From contig OZ004586.1 in assembly GCA_963924555.1 (NCBI GenBank), forward strand, positions 372,001 through 436,000: a DNA stretch of 64,000 nucleotides, written 5' to 3'. The position numbers and the translations under genes were made by a program. Below are positions 5,684 through 62,357 of the stretch, in pieces; position 1 is the first letter of the stretch; each line of letters starts with the position of its first letter. The stretch comes from Crambe crambe. Taxonomy: Eukaryota > Porifera > Demospongiae > Poecilosclerida > Crambeidae. Under the pieces are notes generated by a model. That model saw only the letters and a program-made list of their open reading frames with translations. It had not been told where the DNA came from and made no database searches.

Positions 5684-8600
5684 CTAACAGTGTGAGTGGA
5701 AATAATCCACCACTTCACTGTGACCCTCTGCTTGGGCCAGCTGGAGTGGAGTCTTGTTAAACATGTTTATGATGTTTGGGGAGCAATGGAGATGTTTGAT
5801 GAAATACTTGACAGTTGCGAGCTCACCAAACACTGCTGCCCAGTGAAGTGGAGTTTCAAGATCTTTGTTTTGTAACATAGCGTTGCATCCTTTGACTTCA
5901 GTTAGATATCGGATGATGGATAGGTGTCCTTTCTTGGCTGCAATATGTAAAGGTGTAGAATTGTTGTCATCCAGAGAATTGGGGTCACAGGCATGATTCT
6001 CTATGAGATTCTTGACGAGGTGGAGGTGACCTTCTTGTGAAGCAGAGTGAAGTGGTCGTCTTCCATACTGACCAGGAACATTAGGATTGCACTGCATAAT
6101 GTTTATTAAATAGTCACAAACATCACTATGTCCATTACGGGCTGCATTGTGAAGTGGTGTGCTGTTCCACTTGTCCCTACAGAGAGGATCACACCTCATG
6201 TCTTCGCATAGATATTGCACTATTGATAAGTGCCCAAACTGTGCAGCAAGACCTAGGGGGGTGACATGCTCATCATTTCTACTCTCAGGGTCACACCCAC
6301 ACTCCATTATCAGGAACTTGACAATGGACAAGTGACCCTTCTGTGCAGCATCAAAAAGAGGTCCTCCACCATGCACACCACTAGGAAGGTTGGGGTCACA
6401 ATTGCAGTCGTGGATAAAATATTGCAATATTTCGATGTGACCAAATTGAGCTGAAACGTGGACGGGAGAAGTCTGATGCTTTGTGAAATCCTTGAACATA
6501 TCTTCCATCTTCATGAAGGTCAGCATTTTTTCCATCAAGTACTTCGCTACTTTTAAATTTCCACCGATACAAACACTGTGTAGAGGTGAGTAACCATACT
6601 CGTCCTGCTCAAGGGGATCGACTTGGTGCTTTTCGACTAGATACTGTACTATGTTGAGATGACCTGTTTCAGCTGCTTGGTGTAATGGTGTCATTCCATA
6701 TTGACCTGACGCTGCAGGGTTACAGAGCTCACTTTCAATCAGGTACTCCAGCACTTCCAATCTTCCATTGGTAGCTGCATAATGTAGTGATGTATTATTG
6801 TTCGCATCTTTTGTTAAGGGGTTGAGTCCCTTTGTGATGAGACGCTTCACTTCTTCCAGGTCTCCTCTTTTGGCAGCATGATGCAATTCCAAGCTCTGGT
6901 TGGTGGTGGTTTCTGCTGAGACTATCATGTCCAGTCGTGGGTCCTTCAAGTCTCTCCCAACATACTCCTGTCATGTGAGGGAAGGAAATTCTCACTCTAG
7001 TACTAACATAATAGAGGAATTGTTGACTTATTAGCTATAGAAGTCTGGAAATTTATGGATTGTGCCACAGACATTACAACCATTGTTTACAAGTAACAGC
7101 AATTAAAAAATACATGGAAATTAAATTAATCAAATACAAGTAAGTTGTAACCATGGATATTATGCTCCATTGTTTTCTTGATCTCCAATTCTACCTATTA
7201 TGCTTCTTAGAAATTGTTCAATAAATTGATCAGCATTGAAGATATTCTTCTCTCATTAAATGAAGTGACAAAACCCTTTCATAAGCTGTGTAGATGAGGG
7301 TTGGACTAAGAGGACTCTCTTTAAAAGGGAAGACAATGAGGGTAATTCATCCTGGCTCACTGAACCTCAGAAAGGTCTATGAGTAATTGCCTATTAAGCT
7401 CAATTATGCCCTAAAAGTTATTATGTCTAAATGTAAAAGAATATGCTACATCATTTATTCCTCCCTAATTATTGAATTAGGTAGAACTAGTAGCATGTTG
7501 ATATTCTTACGTTAGGGGAATGATGATTTTAAAATCCTTACCTGGAACACAGACATTACAACCATTGTTTACAAGTAACAGAAATTAAAAAATACATTGA
7601 AACTAAATACAAATAAGCTGTAACCATGGATATTAAAATTAGTAAAAACCTGATGTAAATGAATATGCTTCCAAATAATGTTTTTATATTAGGAGGAATG
7701 ATGACTTGTAAAATACTTACCTGGAACTCATCAGAGATATAGGTCCCGAGTCCTGATGTGAATATGCTTCCACCATCATCTGAGTGAGTGGCAATACCTG
7801 TTCCAGTGATGTCACTAACTGTGCCAAATGCTGAGTCAGCATCATCATCACCATCACTACCCTCCACCTTAAGGGCAGCCATTTCCCCCACTAGAGAGAG
7901 GACAGGGTCTGGGTAGGAGAAGGGATATCAGATGATGTCAAATACATGGAGAGAACTCACCTTTTCCCTTATCATCAGTTGTGACCTCCTGAAAAGAAAG
8001 ATTGAGACTCTGGTCTCCATAGCTGATATGCACAAACCCCAGACTTTGCAGAGCAAGCTGTTGTTCTTCAGTAATAGTATCTATTATGCCGTCATCCAAA
8101 GCTCGGTACTTCAGCTCAATGCAACCTTCATCGATATGCAGCAGTCGTATCACTGGACCTCCCAATGCTCTTCTCATAGCATGCTCCAGTTTCTCAAACT
8201 CTTCAACAGTTGTTTTATCGATTTTCATTTCACTTTTGAGAGCGAGTGTTTTTTCTGACTCTTCTTCGTTACCAAATGTATCGCTCGGACATTCACAAAT
8301 TCGCCTCTTGGAATAATCTTGAAATTTCTTTCTGAATTCTTTGAGTGCTTCTTTATTTCTTGTCGTACCAAATCTGTTCATCATAAGTTTGATCAGATCA
8401 CGGTCATAGAAAGACCAAAACTTTGATGCTTTGCGAAATGCTTCAGGTATGGTTTTGCAGCCTTGTAGTAATTCTTCAAACTTTGCTTCGTGGAAGGTTA
8501 GGAAGCTGTGAAGGTCATCTAGTGTGCACTTTTCTTTGACAGATTTTTGAAGGTCAAAGACGAGGTTAGTAAATTTAGCTTTCAAACGTTCAGTTTCTTT

Positions 8601-10185
8601 CTGCAACTGTCTCATTTTAAACCTTTTCTCTTTTTCTGACATCCCATCGGTAGGTAAGAATGGAAAACATGGAATGAGATCCACAGCACTCATATCTGAA
8701 ATTTCAAGTAACACACTTGCATAAATTGATCTTAACTTCCCTCAGAACAGTACCTGAACTAGAGGATGAGCTGACTGTGGAAGGAGCAGGTTCTGGACAC
8801 TCAACATTCAGTTGATCTAAAGATATAAATTAAAGATAAAAGTCACTTAGCTATCAAGTATCATTTCTCCTTACCTTCAGAATTCATGTCAGATGGTGTG
8901 GGAATATCTGATGCCAATTGTTGAACACCTGTAACAAAATAAGCCCTGAAAATCATTAACTAACTGGTTATATCGCATTATAAGATTGTGTATTTCAGTT
9001 GATCTTTAGAATGGATCTTTATTTTAATCATATCCACAACTAGTTGATTTGGATACTGAGTAGTTACTAGTCCAGAATTAGCTGTAACTACCTTGTGCAA
9101 TCTTTTGAGCAAGTCCTTCATGACCAATAGTTCTGAGTGCTTTCATCAAGCTCTCCCAGGTGGGTTTACCACTCTCCTTCATCACATTATCTTGCTGATT
9201 GAGCCATGCCAAAACCATGTCTCCACAAAGAGGGTTCATCATCTTCAAGTTGCTGTAGTGGAGACCCAATGCCCCACCCAACTGTATCAAGTCTTCTGGA
9301 AGAAGAGTTTTCAAATATTGAGTGACTTTAAAATGGTCATCCACTGTTAATAGTGCTACAAACAAACAAGAGATGGATGAGCTAAAGTAACAGTGCATGA
9401 AGATCTTGATATTAATAAGGCTGTGTCTACAGTGCCGGCACCGGCATCGGGAATTATCTTCTTGGAGTGCCGGCAGGACACTTAGAAAAATTTTCAAAAA
9501 TTGAAAAAGAAAAAATGTCCAATTTGGGAATCAAACCCGAGACCGCACGTTCCATAGCACACGGCACTAACCGATGCGCTACAGTGGCAACGCTGCAAGC
9601 ATCTGTTTGAAAGCGATACTTATACTTCTAATCTCAAACTCTTTGGTTGTCTTAGGGAGCCCTTTGGGCGAATGTTGCCTAGCCTTGGAGTCACAACAGT
9701 GCGTGAATAGTACGTCCCATACACCTAACGCTCACTGCGCTCGCTCCCTTGCAGGAGCCATTATATACATAGGCCAGCTTTGCTGGCCTATGTATTATCC
9801 TGCCGGCACTCCAAGAAGAAAATTCCCAATGCCGGTAGAATTAATATGTATATATTAATTTTAATTATATTAATGATATGTATATGCGAATATTAATAAA
9901 TATTGTTAGACTTACTCTCTGGACCTGGGTTAGATTCGACATCACCACAGAGTATCAAGAGAGAGGGGAGAACTGTCTTTGCAAAGGACAGGTTGAGAAT
10001 GGAGCCATGATCCCCCAGATCAGATTGAACACAGAAAGTGTTTGATGTGGGGGAAGAGAGATCACCAACAAGCACTGGATAAAGAAAGCAGGAGTGTCTA
10101 CTTATCATTAAAGGAAGTTGGAAAATAATATCTAGAGGGAACAAAATTATAGACCTAGTTGCATACCTTTGAGTGCTTCTTTCAT
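5684..10185 (-). CDS. 2A-Death-helical-ANK protein, gene B
   Basis: Nine exons on the minus strand: 10167-10185 (MKEALK), 9916-10131 (leader with 2A), 9092-9355 (Death domain), 8875-8928 (GVQQLASDIPTPSDMNSE), 8754-8816 (Ser-rich), 7961-8695 (helical module), 7721-7890 (acidic GDDDADSAFGTVSD segment) and 5684-6967 (EYVGRDLKDPRL, then 12 ankyrin repeats). Exon lengths sum to 2805 nt, giving 934 aa with no stop. Introns are phase 1 until the last, which is phase 0. The usual exon-2 acceptor (TTTAG) reads TTTAA here. An upstream TCTAG at 10132-10134 restores the frame and adds DIIFQLPL. Death plus ankyrin architecture suggests a cytosolic sensor or adaptor; the ligand is unknown. Type II helical module (TDGMSEKEKRFKMRQL), shared with D. 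The intron at 9356-9915 contains an inserted inverted-repeat element. Confidence 0.8.
6968..7720 (-). other. Intron before the ankyrin exon of gene B
   Basis: Non-coding, 753 bp. A block of about 60 bp ending in a splice-like TGTTCCAG/GTAAGG (7545-7615) repeats sequence at 7060-7135, a partial duplication of the neighbouring exon end. Equivalent introns in D, E and F differ by indels that reveal gene conversion among copies. Confidence 0.6.
9431..9840. mobile_element. Inverted-repeat non-autonomous element in gene B intron
   Basis: Terminal inverted repeats of about 38 bp: the left arm runs from CCGGCATCGGGAATTATC (9441) to GTGCCGGCAGGA, and the right arm (9800-9838) is its near complement. 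Inside are a tRNA-like stretch (9512-9590) and a perfect hairpin (ACATAGGCCAGC, TTT loop) at 9767-9793. No transposase. It lies between the leader and Death exons and is absent at this place from copies D, E and F, so it is a late insertion. An AT-rich strip (9841-9900) follows it. Confidence 0.65.
9512..9590 (-). other. tRNA-like SINE head
   Basis: The minus strand holds an A-box-like TAGCGCATCGGTTAGTG and a B-box-like GGTTTGATTCC at tRNA spacing, as in tRNA-derived SINEs. The acceptor arms (GTTGCCA against TTGGACA) do not pair well, so it is unlikely to be a working tRNA gene. Confidence 0.55.
9920..9943 (-). other. 2A ribosome-skipping motif of gene B
   Basis: DVESNPGP in frame in the leader exon, preceded by PSLLILCG. 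The predicted break falls after about 76 residues, because the shifted acceptor lengthens the leader. Confidence 0.9.
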
Positions 10186-10747: not shown

Positions 10748-13700
10748 TCAAGTGTTGACTTGTCGACATCCATCAATTCCATTCCCATTCATGTCCATGA
10801 TGGCTCCAGAACGGTACACCAGAAAACAGTCCAGAACTCCAAGAGTACGTGTACACATGTCCTGTCTCTTGATCTCATTCAGATCTGCTTCTGTGAAAGC
10901 GAAGGTCACTTCTGGGAGGTTATCAGTCAAGAGTCTTCCTCCATTCAGTTGGTGCTGAGTATCAGGATCAATAGGTATGGGCATAAAGGTCTTGTTGTTG
11001 ATGAGTGCAAGGTAATCAAAGATCAGTGAAGTGGCATTGACTGTTTCATCAAATCTTAAGGTCAACTCCCCACGATTCATATCGATGGCAAAGTTGAGGA
11101 GTCTTGGTGGGGTGGTGTCAGGGACAAAAGAGCTCAAAGAGAAAGTTGGAGACTGAAGAACAGAATTACCATCCATGTCCATAATGGTGATGCTTGTGAG
11201 GGAGAGGTAGAGGCTCGAGTTATCCACTGCAAGCGTTTCACGAATCTTTATCTGGTTGAGGTCATCGTTGGTCAGGACGATGCTAATGATGTTGAGTGGA
11301 GGTGATACAGAGACATATTGTCCACTGAGGGAGTAGGATGGAGTAGATGTTGAAGCACGATCAAAGAGATTGATACCACTTGTATCCAAACTTGATGAGT
11401 TCACTGTCTCTGAGAACGTTAAGGTCAGAGTTCCACTGTTAGCATCGAAATCGAATCCAGTGAGAACAGGGTTAATAGTGTCTCGTTGGTAACTCGTCAC
11501 TCTGATGGCACCACTAGGGGGAATTCCCACCACTGAGTTCCCGAACGTATCATCGATGGTATCCTGTGAGAAGAAGATGTAAGTATCATTTTCAGATGTC
11601 CCTAACAGATCACGACGCTTTATCTCGTTGAGGTCAGAGGTGCTCAGGCTAATGACCACCTGGGGCAGGTTGCTGGCCTGCATGGTCCGGCTGGTGTTCA
11701 GAGTGTATGTTAAGTTGTCTCCAGTGATGTTGATACCTGAAGCAAGGGTGATCTGAGAGACATCAAGCGATTGGAAATCCACAGACTCATTGAAGGAGAG
11801 AGTCAGAGTTTCAGCTGTGACGTCCAATGAAAATCCCAGGAGTGAAGGAGGGGTGGAGTCTGGAGTGTACCTGCTAACTGGTATTGCATTCAGTCCACTG
11901 AGGATCGGTACGACTGGATATCCTGAGACGTCCAATATAGTGGTGTTGGTCAAAGTGACCCAGGCGGAGGTATTGGTGCCAGCTATGTCCCTCGTTTTCA
12001 AAACATTGAGGTCGTCGTTGGTGATCTCTACGACCACAACAGGGGCATCATTAGTCGTCACAAGCCTTCCATTAGTGAGGGTGTGAGAAGAAGCTTGAAA
12101 TCCCATGGATGTCCATTGGAGAGTGATCCCTGTGAAATCAATGGTGGATACATCGACTGTCTCAGAGAAGTACAGAGTCAGGTAGCCATTATTGAGGTCG
12201 ATATCAAAGCTTTGGAGGACAGGGTTAATGGTGTCTTCAACGAATGCACTTGCTTGTAGGGCAGAGTTGGCTGAGATTTCAGCAACTGCATTGCCATTGA
12301 AGTCACTGATAAAGCCAGGGATGATGCGTAGGAAGGAGGATCCAATGTCGACGAGGAGATCCAAATTCTGCTTGATGAGGTTCAAGTCCTCCAGAGTTAT
12401 GGTTAAAACGACTTCAAGGTGATCTGTAGTTGTGGATTCACCTCCAGTCAGAGTGACTTCTTGCACACGACTCCCTGCTCTTTGTTGAGCTTGCAGAGTC
12501 AAGAATGTCTCATTGATTGTTCCAATGTCAATGGGCTCATCGAAATTCAGAATCAAAGTGCTGGCATTGACATTCACCACAAAGCTGGTCAAACGAGGAC
12601 TGATGAAATCTCCATAGAAGTCGGCGATGCAGTTTGTAGTAGAAGTAATGGGCACACCAATCATTGAGAGGTCTCTTATTGCACTGTCTCTGAGAAAAAC
12701 GCAAGTGTTGTTATCGTCTGTTCCCAAGTCTAAGTTTGTTTTCAAGCTATAGAGATCTGCCTGACCCAGGGTGATGGTGATCTGGGTGGAGTCGACTCTT
12801 GAAGCATTGCTGTCTCTCAGAGTGAACTGATTGCTTCCCATATCGTCAGATTGGATCTCAATGTTGGAGATTTGAACACTCGACGCATCCACCGTCTCGT
12901 CAAACGTCAAAATCAGCTCCTCGGAGGTGAGGTTGAGGGAGAACCGAAGGAGAACAGGAGGAGTCATGTCCGCCATGAAGGTACCAGAGAGAGCACTGCC
13001 ATTGGAAACAGCAACAACAGGAAGACCAAAGAAGTCCCTGATGAGGTCAGAGGTGAGGGAAATGAAGGTATTTGTAGGTGCTGTGGCAAGAGTGGTGATT
13101 GCCTTGATTGCATTTGCATCAGCATCCGAGAGGAAGATGTTGACTTCTACCAAGTTTTCCAGATTTGCTTGACTGGTTGCTGTTAGTGTGTAAGAGCTGG
13201 AAGAGGCACTAGACCGTCTTCCCTGTAAGGTCAGCTCTCTGACATCAAATGAAGAGATGTTGACTGCCTCTGAGAACGTGAGAGTGAGGATTCTTGCATT
13301 TAGATCGAGATTAAATGAAGTGACGATTGGCTGAGTGGCATCAGTGAGGAATTCACTTGCTGTTATCGGATTGGTCGGTGGGACAGACACAACATCATTG
13401 GAGTTGTAATCACGCGTAAGATCACTTGTTATGGAGAGTAAAGTGTTCAATCTTGAAGAAGCAAGATCAGGTCGACTCTTTAACTCATTGAGGTCGTTTT
13501 GTGTCAACTGGAAGGTGACTATGTGAGGAGTCGAAGAATAGTTTATGAAAGAACTTCCTCCAGTGAGGGTGTACTGAATAGAAGATGGAGCTGTTGTGAC
13601 ATTCATGTTGCCAGAACCACTTGTCATTCCTGAATCTGAGGCTGAGCCTGATGCTGATCCACTGCCTGAAGTAGCGGGATCAGGTCTGGCTAGGAAAGTG

Positions 13701-16700
13701 ATGGTTGAAACAGTGAGGAGAGGAATGCGGACTGTTTCAGAGAAGGTCAGAATGAGTACCTCACCCTGGAGGTCAAGTGTGAAGTTGAGCAGGACTGGAG
13801 CTGTGGTATCCATGGTGATGTTTGTCACTTGAGTTGGGATTGTGTTGTTACAGTAATAATTGGAGGTGGAATCTTGAATCGAGCGCTCACTCAGAAGGAC
13901 AAAAGTATCGGTGATTTCAGTAGCAAGAGCCTCGTTTGCCAGCAGCAAGTCAAGATCAAAATCAGAGAGCATGAGGTTTATAAATCTTGTGTATTCTCCA
14001 GTGTTGAATGTACCAGAAGTGAGGCGATATCTCTCCCCCATTGTCCCATTGTTGTTAAGCACTGTTAACATTGTCGGATCAAATGTTGAAGTGTTAACAG
14101 TCTCGTTGAAGGTCAAAGACATCAAACCAACATTCAGATCAAAGTCAAAACTTTCCAGACTGGGACAGTGACTGTCAGAAGTGAAGTTAGATGCTCCAAG
14201 ATTGACTCCAGGGACTCTTATTGGGTTGGAGAACTGGTCTTGGATGAAGTCGGGTGAAAATGACAAGAAGGTATTTCCTTGTTGAGTAGCCAGAGTGATG
14301 ATGGATTTGATGTTGTTGACATCCTCTGTAGACATCTGGAAGACGATGATCGTACTGCTCTCATTTACCGTCAGAGGGACGGGGGAAAACCCTGTTAGAC
14401 TGTAATTGCTGGATGTTGGATTCCGAGAAGGATCTGCAAACTGGAATAAAACTACTTCAGTTGGATCGAACGAGGTCACGTTTACAGACTCTGAGAAGAA
14501 GAAAGTGATTGTGCCGAGGTTGAGGTCAAACTCGAATGAAAGCAGTTCAGGAGGTGTGAAGTCGAGTGAGATATTGCTGACTTCCAGGGCATCACCAGAG
14601 TCTATCACTGCCAAGGGATTTCTAAATGTATCCATTATGACATTGGAATTCACAGTGATGTAAGTGTTGTTCTGATTGGTCGCCAGTCCAGTCAAATCCT
14701 TAATCATATTCAGATCAAACTGTGAGAGCTGGATCACAATTTCAGGTGAATTTGTCATGGAGAGATTGGAATAGCTGGAGAGACTGACAGAAGAAGTGAT
14801 GTTTGTGAGTTCAGAGTCAGACTGAAGAGTGATACCCGTTACATCAAAAGTGCTCACATTAACAGTTTCTGTGAATGATAAAATGAGAATTTCTCGATCC
14901 AAGTCTAACAAGAATGACAGCAATTGTGGGTTGGTCAGGTCAGGGGAGAAGACAGTCACAGGAACGGCATTGGTGCTTGGAATTGGAGCAAGTCTGTTGG
15001 AATTCATATCCACAATTGCCGATTCTGTGACAGAAAGGAAGGTCGTCTCGTTACTCACCCCGATAGAATCCAGCTGCTTTATGCGATTCAGATCCTGTGT
15101 ACTAATATTCACCACGATTACCGTCCCATTGATGCTACTGGTGAAACTCATGTCAGAGAGAGAGTACAGTGGTTGTGTTGAATTGGCTTCAGACTGGAGT
15201 GATATTTGTGTTACATCAAGTGAATCTGCATTAACTGTTTCACTGAAAGTCAGTGTTAGGATTTCCTGATCGAGATCAAGATCAAATCCTTGGAGTTGAG
15301 GTGACACAGTATCACTGGTGAATTGTTCAGCTTGTCTGGGTGTGGTGACGGGGAGCACAGGATTTGAATTCATATCTTGAATCAGTGTCTCAGTTAGAGT
15401 CAGGAAGGTGTCAGTAATATCAGTGGCTAACTCTGTTTGGAATTTAATTGCATTGAGATCAGGAGTGCTGAGATTCAATGCCAGATAAGAAGAGTGGTCA
15501 GTGTTCAGAAGTTGGCCTCCAGTTAGTGAATATGATTGTGCTCCTGGAAATATGCCTTCGTGGAGAGTGACCTGAGTGACCTCGAATGTTGTGATGTTCA
15601 TAGTCTCGGAAAAGTTGAGGTAGAGGACCTCCATCGTGAGGTCGATGCCAAATGACTCCAAGTAAGGCCTGATTTCATCCTCCACATAAGTCTGAGCTGG
15701 AAGCGCTGAAGTGTTGGAAATTGGAACTATGCCAAGTCCGACCATGTCAAAGATGGAATTGGAATCAAGAACGAGATAAGTGGAGGCATTGCTTGAAGCA
15801 AGAACTGGGAGTCGACGTATTTCATCAGAATCGAATCTGCTGAGGTTGACCACAATGGTGGGGTTGGAGACGAGAGACGTGACTATGCTATTAGTGAAAG
15901 TGTGGGAGAGAGTCGTGTTGTCATCAAACACTTCCTCACTTTGAAGTGTGACTCCATTGATAGCAAAGGAACTGGTGTTCACTGTCTCTGAGAAGACAAG
16001 AGTGAGGAGATTAGAGGTGAGATTTAGATCATAGCTGACGAGAGATGGTGGTGTAGTGTCATCTGTGAAGTTCCTCACAGGTTCAGGGATGACGATATCC
16101 TCGACAGAATTCCCATCCATGTCCTCAATGAGGTAAGAAGTTATCACAAGATATGTGTTGTTAGGCGAAGTTGCTAGATTGTCAATTCTCTTCAAATTGT
16201 CCTCGTCCTCTCGCAGTATCTGGACCTCTATGACAGGTGAGTTTTGCATCCCAACTCTTCCCTCCAACAACTGGTATTGCAGGAAATATGGTATTTCCGA
16301 CTCCACGATTGTGATGGCAGTGAAATTGATAGTGGATATGTTCACAGTTTCCGAGAATCCCAATGTTAAAGTGACTCCATCCATGTCCAGATCGAAGAAC
16401 TCCAGAACAGGACTGCTGGCATCTCTGGTGTAGTTAGTGACTCTCAACTGAGATGCAGTGAGGTTATTGCCTGCCATATCAGCAATGGCAGTGGGGAGGA
16501 CCCTCAATGATGTGTCAAGCTGGCCAGTAGTTAGATTTGTGAGGAATTTGATGGCATTGAAGTCACGTCTGGTGATATCGATCATCACTATGGAACTGTT
16601 TTCGGAGAGACTGAAACTGGATATGAGTTGGTAGCTCTCCCGAGGGGATCCCAGACCAACAAGCGTGAAGCCAGAGATATCGAGTGAAGATACATCGACT

Positions 16701-27690: not shown

Positions 27691-27718
27691 CTAGAGATTA
27701 TTTATTACTAGAGATTAT

Positions 27719-27836
27719 TAGAAGAGAAGAGAAGAGAAGAAGAGAAGAGAAGAGAAGAGAAGAGAAGAGAAGAGAAGAGAAGAGAAGAGAAGAGAAGAGA
27801 AAAGAAAAGAAAAGAAAAGAAAAGAAAAGAAAAGAG
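27719..27836. repeat. (GAGAA)n / (GAAAA)n microsatellite
   Basis: About 118 bp of GAGAA units grading into AAAAG units. On the minus strand it is a pyrimidine tract lying inside the 198-bp gap between leader C and the giant frame, directly upstream of the TCTAG acceptor at 27691, where it could act as a strong polypyrimidine tract. Confidence 0.95.
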
Positions 27837-27888
27837 ATGGATGAGCTGAAGTAACAGTGTATGGGGAACTTGATATTGTTAGACTTAC

Positions 27889-45600: not shown

Positions 45601-46525
45601 AAAGATGAGTTTAACAAATCTAGTTTTAATCTGTTCAGTTTCTTGATAAAGCCGACTCATTTTAATCTTTTTTTCATCTTCTGACATTCCATGAGTTGGG
45701 AGAAAAGGAAAATGTGGAATAAGTTCCACAACACTTAGCACTGAAAAATTATAGTGATTAACACTTAGCATAGAAACACTTCAAATAACATACCTGAACT
45801 GGCGCATGAACTGACAGTAGAGGCAGCAGATTCATGATATTGAGTTTTCAGTTGATCTGTTGAAGTGACAATGAGAATTGATCACGATATACATAAAATC
45901 TTTACCTTGTGCTATCTGTTGAGCCAGTCCTCCATGACCAATAGTTCTGAGTGCTCTCATCAAGCTCTCCCAGGTAGGTTTACCACTCTCCTTCATCACA
46001 TTATCTTGCTGATTGAGCCAAGCCAAAACCAATCCTTCACATAGTGAATCAGATGTCATCCTATCCAAGGTGGTGTAGCGGAGTCCCAGAGCCTCACCCA
46101 ACGATTTCAAGTCTTTTAAAAGTAGATCTTTCAAACATTGAGTGACTTTGAAATGATCATCAACTTTTAGTTGTGCTACAAAGAAAAGAAAAAAAATTGG
46201 ATGGGCTACAGTGACATAGGATATCATTTCTCAAAATGATTTGTTAGACTTACTCTCTGGGCCTGGGTTAGATTCGACATCTCCACAGAGTATCAAGAGA
46301 GAGGGGAGAACTGTCTGTGCAAAGGACAGGTTGAGAAGGGAGCCATGATCCCCCAGATCAGATTGAACACAAAAGGTGTTTGGTGTGGGGGAAGAGAGAT
46401 CACCAACAAGCACTGGATAAAGAAAGCACGAGTGTCTAGTTATCACTAAAGGACGTTGGAAGAGCTATGTAGGTGGGAATAAAACACAGCTACATACCTT
46501 TGAGGGTTTTTCCAGCTCCTTTCAT
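42687..46525 (-). CDS. 2A-Death-helical-ANK protein, gene E
   Basis: Exons on the minus strand: 46498-46525 (MKGAGKTLK), 46254-46445 (leader with 2A), 45906-46175 (Death), 45794-45856 (Ser-rich), 45009-45740 (type I helical module), 44767-44936 (acidic) and 42687-43967 (ankyrin). They sum to 2736 nt, 911 aa, open. It lacks the 54-nt GVQQL exon of type II copies. The Death domain is the most diverged of the set: two extra residues (TSDSL region) and KDLLLKDLKSLGEALGLRY in place of the usual TLLPQDLIRLGGALGL. That may change its partner. Repeats 3, 5 and 10 of the 12 ankyrins differ from B and D mainly at exposed positions. A perfect kappaB-like site lies about 260 bp upstream. Confidence 0.85.
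46258..46281 (-). other. 2A motif of gene E
   Basis: DVESNPGP at the end of the leader exon, with LPSLLILCG before it, followed by a phase-1 GTAAGT donor. Confidence 0.9.
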
Positions 46526-49736: not shown

Positions 49737-52700
49737 CTAACAGAGTGAGTGGAAATAATCCACCACTTCACTGTGACCCTCTGCTTGGGCCAGCTGGAGT
49801 GGAGTCTTGTTAAACATGTTTTTGATGTTTGTGGAGAAATGGAGATCTTCGACGAAATACTTGATAGTTGAAAGCTGACCAAACTCTGCTGCCCAGTGAA
49901 GTGCAGTGCCTCTATTCTTGTCTTGTAACATAGCGTTGCATCCTTTGACTTCGGTTAGATATCGGATGATGGATAGGTGTCCTTTGATGGCTGCAATATG
50001 TAAAGGTGTAGAATTGCTGTCATCCAGAGAATTGGGATCGCAGGCATGATTCTCTATGAGATTCTTGACGAGGTGGAGGTGACCTTCTTGTGAAGCAGAG
50101 TGAAGTGGTCGTCTTCCACACCAACCAGGAACATTAGGATTGCACTGCATAATGTTTATTAAATAGTCACAAACATCACTATGTCCATGAAGGGCTGCAT
50201 TGTGAAGTGGTGTGTTGTTCCGCTTGTTCCTACAGAGAGGATCACACCTCATGTCTTCACATAGATATTGCACTATTGATAAGTGCCCATCTTGTGCAGC
50301 AAGACCTAGGGGGGTGACATGCTCATCATTTCTACTCTCAGGGTCACACCCACACTCCATTATCAGGAACTTGACAATGGACAAGTGACCCCTCTGTGCA
50401 GCATCAAAAAGAGGTCCTCCACCATGCACACCACTAGGAAGGTTGGGGTCACAATTGCAGTCGTGGATAAAATATTTCAATGTTTCGATGTGACCAAATT
50501 GAGCTGAAATGTGGATGGGAGAAGTCTGATACTTTGTGAAATCCTTGAAAATATCTTCCATCTTCATGAAGGTCAGCATTGACTCCATCAAGTACTTCAC
50601 TACTTTTAAATTTCCACCCATACAAGCTCTGTGTAGAGGTGAGTAACCTGACTCGTCCTGCTCAAGGGGATCGACTTGGTGCTTTTCGACTAGATACTGT
50701 ACTATGTTGAGATGACCTGCTTCAGCTGCTTGGTGTAATGGTGTCATTCCATATTGACCTAATGCTGCAGGGTTGCATAGCTCACTTTCGATCAGGTACT
50801 CCAGCACTTCCAATCTTGCATTGCTTGCTGCTCGATGTAGTGATGTATTATTGTTCGCATCTTTTGTTAAGGGGTTGAGTCCCTTTGTGATGAGACGCTT
50901 CACTTCTTCCAGGTCTCCTATTCGGCAGCATGATGCAATTCCAAGCTCTGCTTGGTGGTGGTTTCTGCTGAGACTATCATGTCCAGTCGTGGGTCCTTCA
51001 AGTCTCTCCCAACATAGTCCTGTCATGTGAGGGAAGGAAATTCTCACTCTAGTACTAACATAATAGAGGAATTGTTGACTTATTAGCTATAGAAGTCTGG
51101 AAATTTATGGATTGTGCCACAGACATTACAACCATTGTTTACAAGTAACAAATACATGGAAATCAAATACAAGTAAGCTGTAACCATGGATATTAAAACT
51201 AGCAAACATTAGGTGTGAGTAAAATTACTATGCTCCATTGTTTTCTTGATCTACCTATTAATAAATTTATCAGCGTTGAAGATATTCTTCTCTCATTAAA
51301 TGAAGTGACAAAACCCTTTCATAAGCTGTGTAGATGAGGGTTAAACTAAGTGGACTCTCTTTAATAGGGAACTTCATCCTGGCTCACTGAACCTCAGAAA
51401 GGTCTGCCTATTAAGCTCGATTATGCCCTAAAGTTATTATGTCTAAATGTAAAAGAATATGCTACATCATTTATTCTTCCCTAATTATTGAATTAGGTAG
51501 AACTAGTAGCACGTTGATATTTTTATGTTAGGGGAATGATGATTTTAAAATCCTTACCTGGAACACAGACATTACAATCATTGTTTACAAGTAACAGCAA
51601 TTAAAAAATACATTGAAACTAAATACAAATAAGCTGTAACCATGGATATTAAAATTAGTAAAAACCTGATGTAAATGAATATGCTTCCAAATAATGTTTT
51701 TATATTAGGAGGAATGATGACTTGTAAAATACTTACCTGGAACTCATCAGAGATATAGGTCCCGAGTCCTGATGTGAATATGCTTCCACCATCATCTGAG
51801 TGAGTGGCAATACCTGTTCCAGTGATGTCACTAACTGCACCAGATGCTGAGTCAGCATCGTCATCACCATCTCTACCCTTCACCTTAAGGGCAGCCATTT
51901 CCCCCACTAGAGAGAGGACAGGGTCTGGGTAGGAGAAGAGACATCAGATGACGTCTAATACCAATGGAGAGAACTCACCTTTTCCCTCATCATCAGTTGT
52001 GACCTGAGAAGAAAGATCGAGACTCTGGTCTCCATAGCTGATATTCACGAACCCCAGACTTTTCAGAGCAAGCTTTTGTTCTTCAGTAATAACATCTATC
52101 ATGTTGTTATCCAAAGTTCGGTATTTCATCTTGCAACCTTCATCAATACGCAGCAGTCGTAACACTGGACCTCCCAATGCAATTTTCATCCTTTTCTCTA
52201 GTTTTCCAAATTCTTCAATGGTCATTTTGTCAAGCTCTATTTTACTTTCCAGAGAGACAACTTTTTCTGATTTCTCTGCATTACCAAATGCATCACTTGG
52301 ACATTCACAAACTCGTCTTTTAGAATACTCCTGGATCTTTTGTTTAAAACTTTTAAGTGCCTCTTTATTTTCCCTTCCACCAAATTTCTTAATCCAAAGC
52401 TTTATAATATGATGATCATGAAAAGAGCAAAATCTAGACACTCTACGAAAAGCTTCAGTCATTGTATCAGAACCTTCCAACAATTTTTCTTCAAATTTCA
52501 TATCATAAAGATTAAGGAGGCTTAGAAAGTCATCGAATGTGTACGATTCTAGTACAGACTTCTGAAGACCAAAGATGAGTTTAACAAATCTAGTTTTAAT
52601 CTGTTCAGTTTCTTGATAAAGCCGACTCATTTTAATCTTTTTTTCATCTTCTGACATTCCATGAGTTGGGAGAAAAGGAAAATGTGGAATAAGTTCCACA

Positions 52701-53523
52701 AGACTTAGCACTGAAAAATTATAGTGATTAACACTTAGCATAGAAACACTTCAAATAACATACCTGAACTGGAGCTTGAACTGACAGTAGAGGCAGCAGA
52801 TTCTTGATATTGAGTTTTCAGTTGACCTGTTAAAGTAACAATGAGAATTGTACTTCATAGTTAGCCAATCTTTACCTTGTGCAATCTTTTGAGCAAGTCC
52901 TTCATGACCAATAGTTCTGAGTGCTCTCATCAAGCTCTCCCAGGTGGGTTTACCACTCTTCTTCATCACATTATCTTGCTGATTGAGCCAAGCCGAAACC
53001 ATATCTTCACGAAGAGGGTTCATCATCTTCAAGTTGTTATACTGAAGACCCAGTGCTAAACCCAACCGTATCAAGTCTTCTGGAAGTAGAGTTCCCAAAT
53101 ATTGGGTGACTTCAAAGAGATCATTCACTGTTAGTTGTGCTACAAAAGACAAACAAATGAAAAACAAACAAAAAACAAAAACAAAACAAAAAGGTGAAGA
53201 GATGGATGAGCTGAAGTAACAGTGTATGGGGAACTTGATATTGTTAGACTTACTCTCTGGGCCTGGGTTAGATTCGACATCACCACAGAGTATCAAGAGA
53301 GAGGGGAGAACTGTCTGTGCAAAGGACAAGTTGAGAATGGAGCCATGATCCCCCAGATCAGATTGAACACAGAAAGTGTTTGATGTGGGGGAAGAGAGAT
53401 CACCAACAAGCACTGGATAAAGAAAGCAGGAGTGTCTAGTTATCATTAAAGGAAGTTGGAAAATAATATCTAGAGGGAACAAAATTATAGACCTAGTTGC
53501 ATACCTTTGAGTGCTTCTTTCAT
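49737..53523 (-). CDS. 2A-Death-helical protein, gene F, stops before its ankyrin repeats
   Basis: Exons on the minus strand: 53505-53523 (MKEALK), 53254-53469 (leader, shifted acceptor as in B, adding DIIFQLPL), 52876-53139 (Death), 52764-52826, 51979-52710 (type I helical), 51737-51906 (acidic) and the ankyrin exon from 51019. A single T:A pair is missing at about 50921 compared with D (TATTCGG against TATTTCGG). The spliced frame therefore meets TAG at 50918-50920, 33 codons into the exon, and predicts 521 aa. The ankyrin frame downstream (49737-50935) is otherwise intact with 12 repeats, so the change is recent or a sequence error. The upstream block has lost about 95 bp including the kappaB-like site. 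The copy is a mosaic: leader like B, exons like E, last intron like D then B. Confidence 0.75.
53258..53281 (-). other. 2A motif of gene F
   Basis: DVESNPGP in the leader exon, preceded by LPSLLILCG. The leader is of the lengthened B type. Confidence 0.9.
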
Positions 53524-56500
53524 GTTTGCACAGTGAAATTCTCGAAATGATCTATGGCAGTTTGTTATGGGATAATTGTTGATTGAGCTTGTAGAAGTTG
53601 ATTATAAGCTTTCTACGAGCCCCACCTCCAAGGACCAAGACGTTTGAAATCCGTAACTAGGTTATCACTGAGTTTAATTATTGTAGGACTTTAGTTCAAT
53701 GAATGGTAATTCTAGAACTGTGATACAGTTATTTCAGGACAATTTTGTCGCTTTTTGATCACAAGCTTTTCGACGAGCCCCACCTCCAAGACGTTTGAAT
53801 CCCGGAAACTAGAGTTTATCGCAGGACTTCAACTTTAACGCGCACGTGCAGTTAGTAATAATACGAGCCCCACCCAGCTATCAGAAGGAGCATGCGCACA
53901 AGAGAACTGGCATAATAATACAGTAATATAACAAAAAGAGACTAATAGTTAAAGTTTCAAGTTCAAGTTTACTAGCTAGCTAGGAATTTCCAGTTCTCAA
54001 GTGTTGACTTGTCGACATCCATCAATTCCATTCCCATTCATGTCCATGATGGCTCCAGAACGGTACACCAGAAAACAGTCCAGAACTCCAAGAGTACGTG
54101 TACACATGTCCTGTCTCTTGATCTCATTCAGATCTGCTTCTGTGAAAGCGAAGGTCACTTCTGGGAGGTTATCAGTCAAGAGTCTTCCTCCATTCAGTTG
54201 GTGCTGAGTATCAGGATCAATAGGTATGGGCATAAAGGTCTCGTTGTTGATGAGTGCAAGGTAATCAAAGATCAGTGAAGTGGCATTGACTGTTTCATCA
54301 AATCTTAAGGTCAACTCCCCACGATTCATATCGATGGCAAAGTTGAGGAGTCTTGGTGGGGTGGTGTCAGGGATAAAAGAGCTCACAGAGAAAGTTGGAG
54401 ACTGAAGAACAGAATTACCATCCATGTCCATAATGGCGATGCTTGTGAGGGAGAGGTAGAGGCTCGAGTTATCCACTGCAAGCGTTTCACGAATCTTTAT
54501 CTGGTTGAGGTCATCGTTGGTCAGGACGATGCTAATGATGTTGAGTGGAGGTGATACAGAGACATATTGTCCACTGAGGGAGTAGGATGGAGAAGATGTT
54601 GAAGCATGATCAAAGAGATTGATACCACTTGTATCCAAACTTGATGAGTTCACTGTCTCTGAGAATGTTAAGGTCAGAGTCCCACTGTTAGCATCGAAAT
54701 AGAATCCAGTGAGAACAGGGTTAATAGTGTCTCGTTGGTAACTCGTCACTCTGATGGCACCACTAGGGGGAATTCCCACCACTGAGTTCCTGAATGTATC
54801 GTCGATGGTATCTTGTGAGAAGAAGATGTATCATTTTCAGATGTCGCTAACAGCTTTATCTCGTTGAGGTCAGAGGTGCTCAGGCTAATGACCACCTGGG
54901 GCAGGTTGCTGGCCTGCATGGTCCGGCTGGTGTTCAGAGTGTATGTTAAGTTGTCTCCAGTGATGTTGACACCTGAAGCAAGGGTGATCTGAGAGACATC
55001 AAGCGATTGGAAATCCACAGACTCATTGAAGGAGAGAGTCAGAGTTTCAGCTGTGACGTCCAATGAAAATCCCAGAAGTGAAGGAGGGGTGGAGTCTGGA
55101 GTGTACCTGCTAACTGGTATTGCATTCAGTCCACTGAGGATCGGTATGACTGGATATCCTGAGACGTCCAATATAGTGTTGTTGGTCAAAGTGACCCAGG
55201 TGGAGGTATTGGTGCAAGCTATGTCCCTCGTTTTCAAAACATTGAGGTCGTCGTTGGTGATCTCTGCGACCACAACAGGGGCATCATTAGTCGTCACAAG
55301 CCTTCCATTAGTGAGGGTGTGAGAAGAAGCTTGAAATCCCATGGATGTCTGTTGGAGAGTAATCCCTGTTAAATCAATGGTGGATACATCAACTGTCTCA
55401 GAGAAGTACAGAGTCAGGTAGCCATTATTGAGGTCGATATCGAAGCTTTGGAGGACAGGGTTAACAGTGTCTTCAACAAACGCACTTGCTTGTAGAGCAG
55501 AGTTGGCTGAGATTTCAGCAACTGCATTGCCATTGAAGTCACTGATAAAGCTGGGGATGATGCGTAGGAAGGAAGATCCAATGTCGACGAGGAGATCCAA
55601 ATTCTGCTTGATGAGGTTCAAGTCCTCCAGAGTTATGGTTAAAATGACTTCAAGATGATCTGCAGTTGTGGATTCACCTCCAGTTAGAGTGACTTCTTGC
55701 ACACGACTCCCTGCTCTCTGTTGAGCTTGCAGAGTCAAGAATGTCTCATTGATTGTTCCAACGTCAATGGGCTCATCGAAATTCAGAATCAAAGTGCTGG
55801 CGTTGACGTTCACTACAAAGCTGGTCAAACGAGGACTGATGAAATCTCCATAGAAGTCGGCGATGCAGTTTGTAGTAGAGATGATGGGCACACCAATCAT
55901 TGAGAGGTCTCTTACTGCATTGTCTCTGAGAAAAACGCAAGTGTTGTTATCGTCTGTTCCCAAGTCTAAGTTTGTTTTCAAGCTATAGAGATCTGCCTGA
56001 CCCAGGGTGATGGTGATCTGGGTGGAGTCAACTCTTGAAGCATTGCTGTCTCTCAGAGTGAACCGATTGCTTCCCATATCATCAGATTGGATCTCAATGT
56101 TGGAGATTTGAACACTAGATGCATCCACTGTCTCGTCAAATGTCAAAATCAGCTCCTCGGAGGTGAGGTTGAGGGAGAACCGAAGGAGAACAGGAGGAGT
56201 CATGTCAGTCATGAAGGTACTGGAGAGAGCACTGCCATTGGAAACAGCAACAACAGGAAGATCAAAGAAGTTCCTGACAAGGTCAGAGGTGAGAGAAATG
56301 AAGGTATTTGTAGGTGCTGTGGCAAGAGTGGTGATTGCCTTGATTGCATCTGCATCAGCATCTGAGAGGAAGATGTTGACTTCTACCAAGTTTTCCAGGT
56401 TTGCCTGACTGGTCGTTGTTAGTGTGTAAGAACTGGAAGAGGCACCGGACCGTCTTCCCTGTAAAGTCAGCTCTCTGATATCAAATGAAGAGATGTTGAC

Positions 56501-59006
56501 TGCTTCTGAGAAAGTGAGAGTGAGGATTCTTGCATTTAGATCGAGATTAAATGAAGTGACGATTGGCTGAGTGGCATCAGTAAGGAATTCACTTGCTGTT
56601 ATCGGATTGGTCGGTGGGACAAACACAACATCATTGGAGTTGTAATCACTCGTAAGGTCACTTGTTATGGAGAGTAAAGTGTTCAGTCTTGAAGAAGCAA
56701 GATCAGGTCGACTCTTTAACTCATTGAGGTCGTTTTGTGTCAACTGGAAGGTGACTATGTGAGGAGTCGAAGAATAGTTTATGAAAGAACTTCCTCCAGT
56801 GAGGGTGTACTGAATAGAGGATGGAGCTGTTGTGACATTCATGTTGTCAGAACCACTTGTCATTCCTGAATCTGAGGCTGAGCCTGATGCTGACCCACTG
56901 CCAGAAGTAGCGGGATCAGGTCTGGCTAGGAAAGTGATGGTTGAAACAGTGAGGAGAGGAATGCGGACTGTCTCAGAGAAGGTCAGAATGAGTACCTCAC
57001 CCTGGAGGTCAAGTGTGAAGTTGAGCAGGACTGGAGCTGTGGTATCCATGGTGATGTTTGTCACTTGAGTTGGGATTGTGTTGTTACAGTAATAATTGGA
57101 GGTGGAATCTTGAATCGAGCGCTCACTCAGAAGGACAAAAGTATCGGTGATTTCAGTAGCAAGAGCCTCATTTGCCAGTAGCAAGTCAAGATCAAAATTG
57201 GAGAGCATGAGGTTTATAATCCTCGTGTATTCTCCAGTGTTGAATGTACCAGAAGTGAGGCGATATCTCTCCCCCATTGTCCCATTATTGTTAAGTACTG
57301 TTAACATTGTCGGATCAAATGTTGAAGTGTTAACAGTCTCGTTGAAGGTCAAAACATCAAACCAACATTCAGATCAAAGTCAAAACTTTCCAGACTGGGA
57401 CAGTCACTGTCGGAAGTGAAATAAATGCTCCAAGATTGACTCCAGGGACTCTTATTGGGTTGGAGAACTGGTCTTGGATGAAGTTGGGTGAAAATGTATT
57501 TCCTTGTTGAGTAGCCAGAGTGATGATGGATTTGATGTTGTTGACATCCTCTGTAGACATCTGGAAGATGATGATCGTACTGCTCTCGTTTACCATCAGA
57601 GGGACGGGGGAAAACCCTGTCAGACTATAATTGCTGGATGTTGGATTCCAAGAAGGATCTGCAAACTGGAACAAAACTACTTCAGTTGGATCAAACGAGG
57701 TCACATTTACAGACTCTGAGAAGAAGAAAGTGATTGTGCCGAGGTTGAGGTCAAACTCGAATGAAAGCAGTTCAGGAGGTGTGAAGTCGAGTGAGATATT
57801 GCTTACTTCCAGGGCATCACCAGAGTCTATCACTGCCAAGGGATTTCTAAATGTATCCATTATGACATTGGAATTCACAGTGATGTAAGTGTTGTCCTGA
57901 TTGGTTGCCAGTCCAGTCAAATCCTTAATCATATTGAGATCAAACTGTTAGAGCTGGATCACAATTTCAGGTGAATTTGTCATGGAGAGATTGGAATAGC
58001 TGGAGAGACTGACAGAAGAAGTGATGTTTGTGAGTTCAGGGTCAGACTGAAGAGTGATTCCAGTTACATCAAAAGTGCTCACATTAACAGTTTCCGTGAA
58101 TGACAAAATGAGAATTTCTCAATCCAAGTCTAACAAGAATGACAGCAATTGTGGGTCGGTCAGTTCAGGGGAGAAGACAGTTACAGGAACGGCATTGGTG
58201 TTTGGAATTGGAGCAAGTCTGTTGGAACTCATATCCACAATTGCCGATTCCGTGACAGAAAGGAAGGTCATCTCGTTACTCACCCCAATAGAATCCAGCT
58301 GCTTTATGCGATTAAGATCCTGTGTGCTAATATTCACCATGATTACAGTCCCATTTATGCTACTGGTGAAACTCATGTCAGAGAGAGAGTACAGTGGTTC
58401 TGTTGAATTGGCTTCAGACTGGAGTGATATCTGTGTTACATCAAGTGAATCTGCATTAACCGTTTCACTGAAAGTCAGTGTTAGGATTTCCTGATCGAGA
58501 TCAAGATCAAATGCTTGGAGTTGAGGTGACACAGTATCACTGGTGAATTGTTCAGCTTGTCTGGGCATGGTGATGGGGAGCACAGGATTTGAATTCATAT
58601 CTTGAATCAGAGTCTCAGTTAGAGTCAGGAAAGTGTCAGTAATATCAGTGGCTAACTCTGTTAGGAATTTAATTGCATTGAGATCAGGAGTGCTGAGATT
58701 TAATGCCAGATAAGAAGAGTGGTCAGTGTTCAGAAGTTGGCCTCCCCAGTTAGTGAATATGATTGTGTTCCTGGAAATATGCCTCTGTGGAAGGTGACCT
58801 GAGTGACCTCGAATGTGGTGATGTTCATAGTCTCGGAGAAATTGAAGTAGAGGACCTCCATTGTGAGGTTGATGCCAGGTAAGGCCTGATTTCATCCTCC
58901 ACGTAAGTCTGAGCTGAAAGCACTGAAGTGTTAGAAATTGGAACTATACCAAGTCCGACCATGTCAAAGATGGAACTGGAATCAAGAACGAGATAAGTGG
59001 AGGGAT

Positions 59007-59265
59007 TTGAATACTGAGGATAGGAGGCAAAGATAGAAAAATATCCGTTGCGCGCGGGAAAAAATTTTGCCCGACGACGCACACTTTAATCATAAATAAT
59101 GCATTTTTCGTCGACACTAACAGCTAGCCAGCAACTAGAAATAACCTGTTACAGGCTTGGAAGCCTTGACATGTTCGTTTTTAGAACTAGAATTTAATAA
59201 GTGTTATAATTTAGTGCTAGCAAGCGAGGAGCCTCTGCCTCAATGGTAGTTACGCCCCTGCATTG
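59007..59265. mobile_element. Short insertion of unknown type in the giant-gene copy
   Basis: About 260 bp absent from the equivalent place in the intact gene (between GTGGAGG and GCATTGCT, about 15782). It has no open frame and no clear terminal repeat. It could be a SINE or a fragment of one. Confidence 0.45.
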
Positions 59266-59943
59266 CTCGAAGCAAAAACTGGGAGTCAACGTATTTCATC
59301 AGAATCGAATCTGCTGAGGTTGACCACAATGGTGGGGTTGGAGACGAGAGACGTGACTATGCTATTGGTGAGAGTGTGGGAGAGAGTCGTGTTGTCGTCA
59401 AACACTTCCTCACTTTGAAGTGTGACTCCATTGATAGCAAAGGAACTGGTGTTCAGAAGACAAGAGTGAGGAGATTAAAGGTGAGATTTAGATCATAACT
59501 GATGAGAGATGGTGGTGTGGTGTCATCTGTGAAGTTCCTCACAGGTTCAGGGATGACAAAATCCTCGACAGAATTCCCATCCATGTCCTCAATGAGGTAA
59601 GAAGTTATCATGAGATATGTGTCGTTAGGCGAAGTTGCTAGACTGTCAATTCTCTTCAAATTGTCCTCGTCCTCTCTTAGTATCTGGATCTCTATGACAG
59701 GTGGATTTTGCATCCTGACTCTTCCCTCCAACAACTGGTATTGCAGGAAATATGGTATTTCCGACTCCACAATTGTGACAGCAGTGAAATTGATCGTGGA
59801 TATGTTCACAGTCTCTGAGAATCCTAATGTTAATGTGACTCCATCCATGTCCAGATCGAAGAACTCCAGAACAGGACTGCTGATATCCTCTGGGGTAGTT
59901 AGCAACTCTCAACTGAGACACAGTGAGGTTATTGCCCGCCATT

Positions 59944-60629: not shown

Positions 60630-61079
60630 ACCCTTTCCACTGTTCTGTTAAAAATAACATGACTGTGTGAAATTCATTGTTTTGTATAATACCATGATTA
60701 ATACTATGAAGCTCCACCCACCAGTGATTCAGAGGGTAATTAAACTAGAATATGACATTCTGTTCACCACATCAAAGGAAGTTAACGTTCTCCACATCAA
60801 AGGATCTACCCACCAGTGTTTCAGAGAGGTAATTAAGACACATCAAAAGAATTCACCGCATCAAAGGAAGTTACAACCACATCAAAGGAATTATGTCCTG
60901 CATCATGTGAATATTATTTTTTGGCGCTTTATTTTGAAATAATATATTATACAAACAAAATCCACAAAATTATAATGTGAGAAGTGAAAGAAAAAGTGTA
61001 AGTGAGTGAGGGGAACCAAAATTATTACAAAATGAACACAAGACAATAACTAGTGGTAAGTGCATAGTTATGGAGGAGA
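60630..61079. other. Convergent intergenic gap, unit G
   Basis: No gene. CATCAAAGGAA words at about 60770-60890 and AATAAA on the minus strand at 60928-60933. Confidence 0.6.
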
Positions 61080-62357
61080 CTAACTGTGTGAGTGGAAATA
61101 ATCCACCACTTCACTGTGATCCTCTGCTTGGGCCAGCTGGAGTGGAGTCTTGTTAAACACGTTTTTAATGTTTGGGGAGCAATGGAGATCTTCAATGAAA
61201 TACTTAACAGTGTCAAGCCGACCAAATTTTGCTGCCCAGTGGAGTGCAGTGTATCCATTCTTGTCTTGTAACATAGCGTTGCATCCTATGACTTCAGTTA
61301 GATATCGGATGATGGGTAGGTATCCATTCATGGCTGCAATATGTAAAGGTGTATAATTGTTGTCATCCAGAGAATTGGGGTTGCAGGCATGTTTCTCTAT
61401 GAGATTCTTGACAACAGGGAGGTGACGTTCTTGTGAAGCATGGTGAAGTGGTCGACTTCCATACTCACCAGGAACATTAGGATTGCACTGCATAATGTTT
61501 ATTAAATAGTCACAAACATCACTATGTCCATGACGGGCTGCACTGTGAAGTGGTGTGTTGTTCCACTTGTCCCTACAGAGAGGATCACACCTCATGTCTT
61601 CACATAGATATTGCACTATTGATAACTGCCCATTAGCTGCAGCAAGATGTAGGGGGGTGACATGATCATCATCTCTACTCTCAGGGTCACACCCACACTC
61701 CATTATCAGGAACTTGACAATGGACAAGTGACCCCCCCGTGCAGCAAGATGGATAGGTCCTGGGCCTCCACCATGCACACCAGTTCCTAGGTTGGGGTCA
61801 CAATTGCAGTCTTGGATAAAATATTTCAATATTTCGATGTGACCAAATAGAGCTGCCATGTGGATGGGAGAAGTGTGATACTTTGTTAAAATATCTTCCA
61901 TCTTCATGGAGGTCAGCATTGTCTCCATCAAGAACTTCACTACTTCTAAATTTCCGCCCTGACAAGCTCTGTGTAGAGGTAAAAAACCATACTCATCCTG
62001 CTCGAGGTGATTGACTTGGTGCTTGTCGACTAGATACTGTACTATGTTGAGATGACCTTTTAGAGCTGCTTCGTGTAATGGTGTCATTCCAAGTCGACCC
62101 AACGCCGCAGGGTTGCATAGTTCACTTTCGATCAGGTACTCGAATATTTCCAATCTTCCAAAGTGAGCTGCTAGATGTAGTGGTGTATGATTGTCTACAT
62201 CTTTAGTTAAGGGGTTGAGTCCCTTTTTGATCAAATGCTTCACTTCTTCCAGGTCTCCTTTTGCGGAAGCATGATGCAACAAGTTCTGCTTGGTGGTGGT
62301 TTCTGCTGAGACTATCATGTCCAGTTGTGGGTCCTTCAAGTCTCTCCCAACATAGTC
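61080..62357 (-). pseudogene. Orphan ankyrin exon G
   Basis: Open frame of 425 codons from the usual acceptor (GACAG/GACTATGTTGGG) to the stop, with 12 ankyrin repeats. It is the most diverged copy: repeats 2, 6 and 7 read TPLHLAA, and the usual GPLFDAAQ of repeat 6 is GPIHLAARGGH, closer to the ankyrin consensus. Its 5' exons are gone; homology to the family intron fades near 62490 and unrelated sequence follows. The frame is open and the substitutions look conservative, so it could be an exon used by another transcript or a recent loss. There is no start context of its own. Confidence 0.6.

Follow-up and report, generated by a model that had tools for sequence, protein, structure and literature searches.

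The 64,000-nucleotide stretch of the Crambe crambe genome analyzed here (the window; assembly GCA_963924555.1, contig OZ004586.1, C9:372001-436000) carries part of a large family of genes with a long ankyrin exon behind Death-like and TRADD-N-like exons. In this family, strong diversifying selection acts on those hairpin and inner-helix residues which in ankyrin proteins are turned towards ligands, the ankyrin scaffold and the TRADD-N-like domain are under purifying selection, and there is near-complete linkage equilibrium between repeats as well as between sensor and signalling exons. The genes are probably tandemly amplified receptors of the intracellular type, whose diversified and reshuffled ankyrin surfaces would make up an inherited combinatorial repertoire.

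With the ankyrin exon of copy E as the query, at least 117 matches were found in the genome (143 Mb in 119 contigs), at least 91 of them spanning 320 residues or more and 79 of these 91 lacking an in-frame stop; these counts are lower bounds. The ankyrin exons in the window (copies B, D, E, F and G) are thus members of a family of about 91 loci, of which 23 form a tandem array at C9:303-569 kb (266 kb), two lie near C9:3.5 Mb, 63 belong to related arrays on C10, and C1, C12 and C17 carry one each. Selection was tested in 43 of the 91 loci, comprising 19 copies on C9 and 16 and 8 copies in two C10 subfamilies, C10w and C10e. From the 25 long C9 loci, three with in-frame stops (L026, L030, L033), two with an altered 5' end (L029, L031) and the divergent L032 were dropped, and a 276-residue C9 fragment was left out. 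From the 25 aligned C10 copies, L051, which matches neither subfamily prefix, was dropped and 16 + 8 were kept. The tested set excludes window copies F and G, the latter being more divergent (78% identity to copy E). The mitochondrial COX1 of this genome, translated with table 4, has 87% identity to its best named match, from Demospongiae, and 90% to an unnamed one, which places the host among the demosponges.

Diversifying selection on the ankyrin surface

An earlier note on this DNA had proposed that the window copies differ around the TPLHxAAxxG motif, from which ankyrin positions are numbered here, and that the changes fall on the exposed positions randomised in designed ankyrin proteins, which we take to be 2, 3, 5, 13, 14 and 33 (the strict list). 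All residue strings quoted in support are present in the translated exons of B, D, E, F and G (AAQ-K/W/E/R-G, AAQ-F/N/N/D-G, AA-RN/LD/RN/LH-G, DE-Y/E/E/S/Y-G-Y/L/A/Y/F and C-I/Q/K/M/Q-GG). Among these five copies, 43 of 68 sites on the list and 8 of 12 at position 10 vary, compared with 71 of 316 elsewhere; with G removed, the counts are 33 of 68, 7 of 12 and 44 of 319. Changes are likewise clustered, not spread evenly over helices and loops, in the three subfamilies. The mean non-synonymous difference on the strict list is 0.201 in C9 (n = 19), 0.199 in C10w and 0.196 in C10e, and none of 32 mask shifts reaches the real value in any of them (best shifts 0.134, 0.123 and 0.124, respectively). 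By position, the C9 values are 0.11 at 2, 0.27 at 3, 0.20 at 5, 0.27 at 10, 0.26 at 13 and 0.31 at 14, with all remaining numbered positions below 0.10; C10w and C10e share this profile, and per-site variability correlates between subfamilies (Spearman 0.39-0.43). The proposed positions therefore hold for 2, 3, 5, 13 and 14 but not for 33, which is not hypervariable, whereas the unlisted position 10 is.

The predicted structure of the copy E ankyrin exon is a confident ankyrin fold (mean pLDDT 92), with designed binders among its structure matches. In repeats 2-8 of this model, the inner helix covers approximately positions 7-13 or 14, which would place positions 10, 13 and 14 on the inner helix or at its end and positions 2, 3 and 5 in the preceding hairpin. 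No two tested copies within one subfamily have an identical surface: even the closest pair differs at 16 of the 72 surface sites in C9 (171 pairs), at 20 of the 69 in C10w and at 20 of the 72 in C10e.

Selection was quantified with a fixed-class codon model in our own implementation, whose single-omega log-likelihood (lnL) of -6726.95 compares with -6726.25 from IQ-TREE. The surface class consisted of the strict list plus position 10, the latter added after inspection of the data. The ratio of non-synonymous to synonymous rates (dN/dS, omega) in this class is 5.10 in C9, 3.28 in C10w and 2.71 in C10e, against 0.59, 0.39 and 0.30 outside it, and a surface omega of 1 is rejected in each (twice the log-likelihood difference, 2dlnL, 345, 177 and 63). 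For the strict list without position 10, the 2dlnL sums over six per-segment trees are 173.6, 107.4 and 41.2 in C9, C10w and C10e; over twelve per-segment trees they are 149.7, 72.0 and 44.3, with omega above 1 in 12 of 12, 12 of 12 and 11 of 12 segments. When the mask was shifted in 11 ways in C9, the one subfamily used for this control, omega was 0.36-1.65 compared with 4.77 unshifted. At a posterior of at least 0.95, 44 of 428 C9 codons are selected (28 of 72 on the list, 7 of 12 at position 10 and 9 of 344 elsewhere), as are 49 of 427 in C10w (31 on the list or position 10 and 18 elsewhere) and 5 of 424 in C10e, all five on the list or position 10. The turn and inner-helix positions thus have a dN/dS well above 1 in three subfamilies, per-segment trees included, as the earlier note had anticipated, and the near constancy of the scaffold that it described reflects purifying selection. 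In the TRADD-N-like part of the C9 genes, omega is 0.41 and a value of 1 is rejected (2dlnL 29.3; 146 codons in 13 of the 19 copies, the other six having been missed by the motif search and two of the 13 being short).

Reshuffling of surfaces between copies

Variable amino-acid columns that are 1-2 codons apart have a squared correlation (r2) of 0.26, which falls close to the permuted level (~0.06) once the distance exceeds 13-33 codons (C9 and C10w). At the nucleotide level, r2 is near background by ~60-100 bp for variable-codon sites and for silent-only sites alike, with silent-site linkage in C9 climbing slightly again (to 0.087) over 101-200 bp; both the 3' flank and the upstream intron retain linkage over 200-400 bp. 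Since linkage decays to about background, silent sites included, surfaces have been reshuffled between copies, on a scale of about one repeat. Long unshuffled paralogue histories are rejected on the silent-site decay. Moreover, identical repeat haplotypes recur in copies that are otherwise different, and similarity between copies shows no relation to genomic distance among the 18 copies of the main C9 array (P 0.62). These patterns are consistent with copies often exchanging short tracts while selection preserves the differences between their surfaces. The type of the TRADD-N-like exon is not associated with the ankyrin residues (P 0.42), and the idea that particular signalling types are tied to particular surfaces is rejected.

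Gene models and neighbouring features of the window

In copies B and E, five exons join via GT-AG sites in compatible phases into one open frame each, in the order 2A-type leader (ending in NPGP), Death-like exon, ~245-residue exon, short acidic exon and ankyrin exon. As read from these models, the predicted protein consists of a 2A leader, a Death-like domain, a helical plus TRADD-N-like domain, an acidic linker and 12 ankyrin repeats. The ankyrin exon matches Pfam Ank_2 (E 1.2e-79). No unassigned stretch of NACHT size is left in the B and E models, and neither NACHT nor NB-ARC is listed in the Pfam scans of the exons.

All family exons described here lie on the minus strand. Copy B (locus L024) has an intact 12-repeat ankyrin exon at 5684-6967, an acidic linker exon at 7721-7890 (GT-AG sites and phase fit), a helical plus TRADD-N-like exon at 7961-8695 (fold modelled in paralogue F), a Death-like exon at 9092-9355 and a 2A leader exon at 9916-10114 (2A motif 9920-9943; upstream limit approximate); its model of 881 residues starts at a methionine. 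The corresponding exons of copy E (L009), whose intact ankyrin exon was the one modelled, lie at 42687-43967, 44767-44936, 45009-45740, 45906-46175 and 46254-46452; its leader exon is an open frame without an ATG, and the start would be upstream or lost. Copy D (L023) was not joined, as one donor pattern was not found. It has an intact ankyrin exon (33168-34487), a helical plus TRADD-N-like open frame (35445-36251), a Death-like exon (36620-36877) and a 2A leader (37025-37219; motif 37025-37048). The ankyrin exon of copy F (L029) has a stop in the normal frame after codon 34 and is therefore probably a pseudogene; the part 3' of the frame break spans 49737-50939, preceded by a helical plus TRADD-N-like open frame at 51944-52750 (structure predicted), a Death-like exon at 52883-53140 and a 2A leader at 53258-53452. 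The frame break coincides with hypervariable codon 34 (49737-51086). Copy G is represented by its divergent ankyrin exon (61080-62357); none of the Death-like or TRADD-N-like exon matches inside the window belongs to it. Copy A contributes a helical plus TRADD-N-like open frame (87-896), a Death-like exon (1029-1286) and a 2A leader (1406-1600), its ankyrin exon (L013) lying just left of the window.

The ~245-residue exon, as modelled in copy F, is predicted to form a helical bundle and, behind it, a beta-alpha-beta-beta-alpha-beta domain of RRM/ferredoxin-like fold. Gly205-Cys206 of the model sits between predicted strands 197-203 and 207-212, which would be the beta2-beta3 turn. Across 17 aligned rows, this turn has Gly-Cys in 11, Gly-Tyr or Gly-Phe in four (copy A, P0123, P0126, P0130), Asp-Ser in one (P0131) and no residue in one (P0127). 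TRADD-N domains have a tiny residue followed by Ser, occasionally Cys, in the beta2-beta3 turn (PMC8195603), and the modelled exon fits this published description. No TRADD family is among the 19 Pfam families matched by the 17 TRADD-N-like sequences (E up to 10). Searches of solved structures (PDB) with the Death-like and TRADD-N-like alignments gave nothing useful, with no PDB sequence match for the latter, and TRADD itself is absent among the 50 fold matches listed for the model, from which we draw no conclusion. In protein searches, the TRADD-N-like exon matched 13 proteins at 30-97% identity, and the ankyrin exon had no close relative, none exceeding 56% identity among the best 120 of 1276 matches. 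The TRADD-N-like exon occurs as two types, assigned by us from pairwise identities, which are ~60% identical and interspersed along the array (e.g. 44974-45780 and 35445-36251, minus strand).

Relatives of the Death-like exon number at least 150 genome-wide, at 44-100% identity, and are often clustered apart from the ankyrin arrays (on C8, C9, C16, C18, C21 and other contigs). The 2A leader gave 30 matches, in about 27 places on C9 and with two weak ones on C5; this search found no match on C10 and hence none in the C10 subfamilies. Directly behind a copy of the leader (motif 27893-27916), repeated blocks form an open frame of 5,649 codons (10748-28099, minus strand), and so the leader seems to be common to an unrelated giant gene, to which it may be joined. 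A 1000-residue piece of this frame matched no Pfam family. Beside copy F, pieces closely similar to the giant gene are split over several frames at 53997-59908 (minus strand) and form a decayed duplicate. The plus strand has two overlapping open frames (150 and 353 residues) in the interval from unit D to unit E (40773-42009), the longer with a sub-threshold Caleosin match only (E 0.0081).

Interpretation and competing explanations

In the mechanism we propose, the 12-repeat ankyrin domain would be the sensing part of the receptor and the Death-like plus TRADD-N-like region its signalling part. Short-tract exchange, through gene conversion or crossing-over, would mix surface variants and homogenise introns, and selection would keep the copies distinct, which would yield an inherited combinatorial repertoire. 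The ligands may be pathogen, symbiont or allogeneic molecules whose binding would set off signalling through the Death/TRADD-N part. Exported and cytosolic forms of the product might arise in the C9 subfamily from splitting by the 2A leader. The pattern of a diversifying recognition repertoire put forward in the earlier note is supported by the uneven substitutions and the surface dN/dS above 1 in three subfamilies; as to its use in non-self recognition, we infer that an immune or allorecognition function is the best reading. An unlikely extension is that the family is an ankyrin counterpart of an antibody repertoire: in ~90 inherited loci, a dedicated short-tract exchange process, perhaps active in somatic or stem cells too, would recombine the 12 repeat surfaces almost independently, the effector module would be freely interchangeable, and a 2A switch would choose between secreted and cytosolic products.

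Several observations weigh against the repertoire interpretation. All results come from one assembly; the tree models give each segment a single history, and exchange operates on a finer scale than that; and silent-site linkage is based on few sites (27 and 29). In the Nei-Gojobori method, in which silent rates are taken from the same codons and silent steps are counted on paths between very different codons, the ratio of non-synonymous to synonymous differences (pN/pS) on the strict list is 1.30 (0.92-1.95) in C9 and 1.28 (0.88-1.91) in C10w, both spanning 1. A value of 1 is excluded in C10e (1.67, 1.12-2.77) and, with position 10 included, in all of C9 (1.53, 1.08-2.25), C10w (1.40, 1.01-2.01) and C10e (1.83, 1.24-3.01). 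Silent differences in C9 are also higher at hypervariable codons (0.086) than far from them (0.043), a rise for which we have no explanation, and slightly so in C10w (0.055 vs 0.047) and C10e (0.080 vs 0.069). Four-fold sites (divergence 0.050 in C9, 0.077 in C10w and 0.082 in C10e) and the C9 intron give a lower neutral yardstick than this same-codon rate; C9 divergence is 0.017-0.027 in the adjoining intron, 0.030 in the 3' flank and 0.072 in the ankyrin exon. On the signalling side, the TRADD-N label has a modest match in fold and a single motif behind it, and Pfam Death matches are weak and occur in two of five copies (best E 0.0066), the first member scoring 13.5 bits, below the 22.6-bit cut-off. 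The joining of the ankyrin repeats to Death domains and a 2A leader, claimed earlier, thus stands for the splice-compatible frames of B and E but is weakened by these Death scores and by the missing leader match on C10.

Among the alternatives, the one that fares best accepts the diversifying selection as real but takes the ligands to be endogenous (paralogue-specific partners, or self/non-self fusion) and not microbes or viruses. It is a minor but real possibility: in Podospora, repeats of this kind occur in genes for non-self recognition between individuals (PMC4986451), and nothing decisive stands against it, although the many copies and their reshuffling suit an open-ended set of ligands. 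It is very unlikely that the copies are old paralogues diverging independently without exchange, with low linkage reflecting independent mutation on a star-like tree. The absence of a correlation between similarity and genomic distance would agree with such a history, but linkage decays also between silent sites in codons of invariant residues, the introns are more alike than the exon, and the recurrent repeat haplotypes speak for exchange.

We give equally little credence to mutational targeting, in which hypermutation or templated mutagenesis, not selection, makes the codons variable. Copies often differ by two or three bases within a variable codon, several columns read NNT, and the raised silent differences at C9 hypervariable codons would fit this explanation. 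However, the third base is kept in 68-74% of codon pairs differing at the first two bases; change therefore respects the reading frame, which makes targeting less likely, and all four bases occur in third position at variable columns. Diversity-generating retroelements leave an adenine-only signature, and adenine-directed diversification is rejected by third bases of all kinds in the variable codons, although no search aimed at such an element was made. Relaxed constraint, under which exposed positions drift freely on a constrained scaffold, is the least probable of all and is rejected as a sole cause, because drift cannot outrun the neutral rate: although the fold depends least on the variable positions and the strict-list pN/pS is compatible with 1 in C9 and C10w, omega is far above 1 (2.7-5.1, with 1 rejected for the surface class) and surface pN is 0.19-0.20, against 0.050-0.082 at four-fold sites and 0.017-0.027 in the C9 intron.

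The proposed inherited repertoire of reshuffled surfaces has parallels in several known systems. Kaur et al. (2021, eLife) reported 357 TRADD-N proteins in the sponge Amphimedon, mostly with Death-like and TRADD-N domains and a variable C-terminus in which ankyrin repeats are among the commonest, and suggested that such C-terminal repeats might recognise invader molecules (PMC8195603). As modelled here, the Crambe genes resemble them in having predicted Death-like domain(s), then a putative TRADD-N-type alpha/beta domain, then an ankyrin C-terminus, and in their large copy number; the Amphimedon family has hundreds of copies with one to three N-terminal Death-like domains. In the main text of that paper, the terms 'positive selection' and 'diversifying selection' do not occur, and the site-level diversification, fine shuffling and 2A leader described here for one species go beyond it. 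For Podospora NLRs, Dyrka et al. (2014) reported that the concave face of the ankyrin repeats is under positive selection, at positions in the hairpin and the inner helix, with exchange between repeats and possibly between genes (PMC4986451). The selected positions are shared with those ankyrin/TPR NLRs, but the latter are fungal, carry NACHT or NB-ARC and have highly alike repeats of varying number, whereas the sponge family is animal, has no NACHT identified in its unit, has 12 repeats with position-specific scaffolds and exchanges between paralogues. The purple sea urchin has Death-domain immune proteins (NLRs) with a 2A-like sequence, D(V/I)ExNPGP, at the N-terminus, which Roulston et al. 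(2016, PMC4981915) showed in mammalian and plant cells to work both as a signal and as a recoding element; those NLRs carry NACHT and LRR, in contrast to the TRADD-N-like and ankyrin parts of the sponge genes. In designed ankyrin repeat proteins, as here, surface positions vary per repeat on a fixed framework (PMC8683736, PMC6590788), with six randomised positions in each (PMC6590788); those proteins are synthetic, and the sponge family varies position 10 and not 33.

The immune prediction for the sponge architecture (Kaur et al. 2021) and ankyrin surface selection in fungal NLRs (Dyrka et al. 2014) are thus already known, and site-level selection together with fine shuffling in an animal ankyrin family is new here. 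In titles and abstract beginnings of the open-licence literature, no report of diversifying selection at the level of sites was found for an animal family of ankyrin receptors, and an earlier description is possible. How animals without antibodies maintain diverse receptors is an open question, and sponges are early-branching and often symbiont-rich. The results reduce the idea that sponge Death/TRADD-N/ankyrin proteins sense invaders to named residues, and suggest that ankyrin surface selection arose in both fungi and animals. With a fixed scaffold, few surface codons, three replicate subfamilies and a recognisable signalling module, the family offers a testable case.

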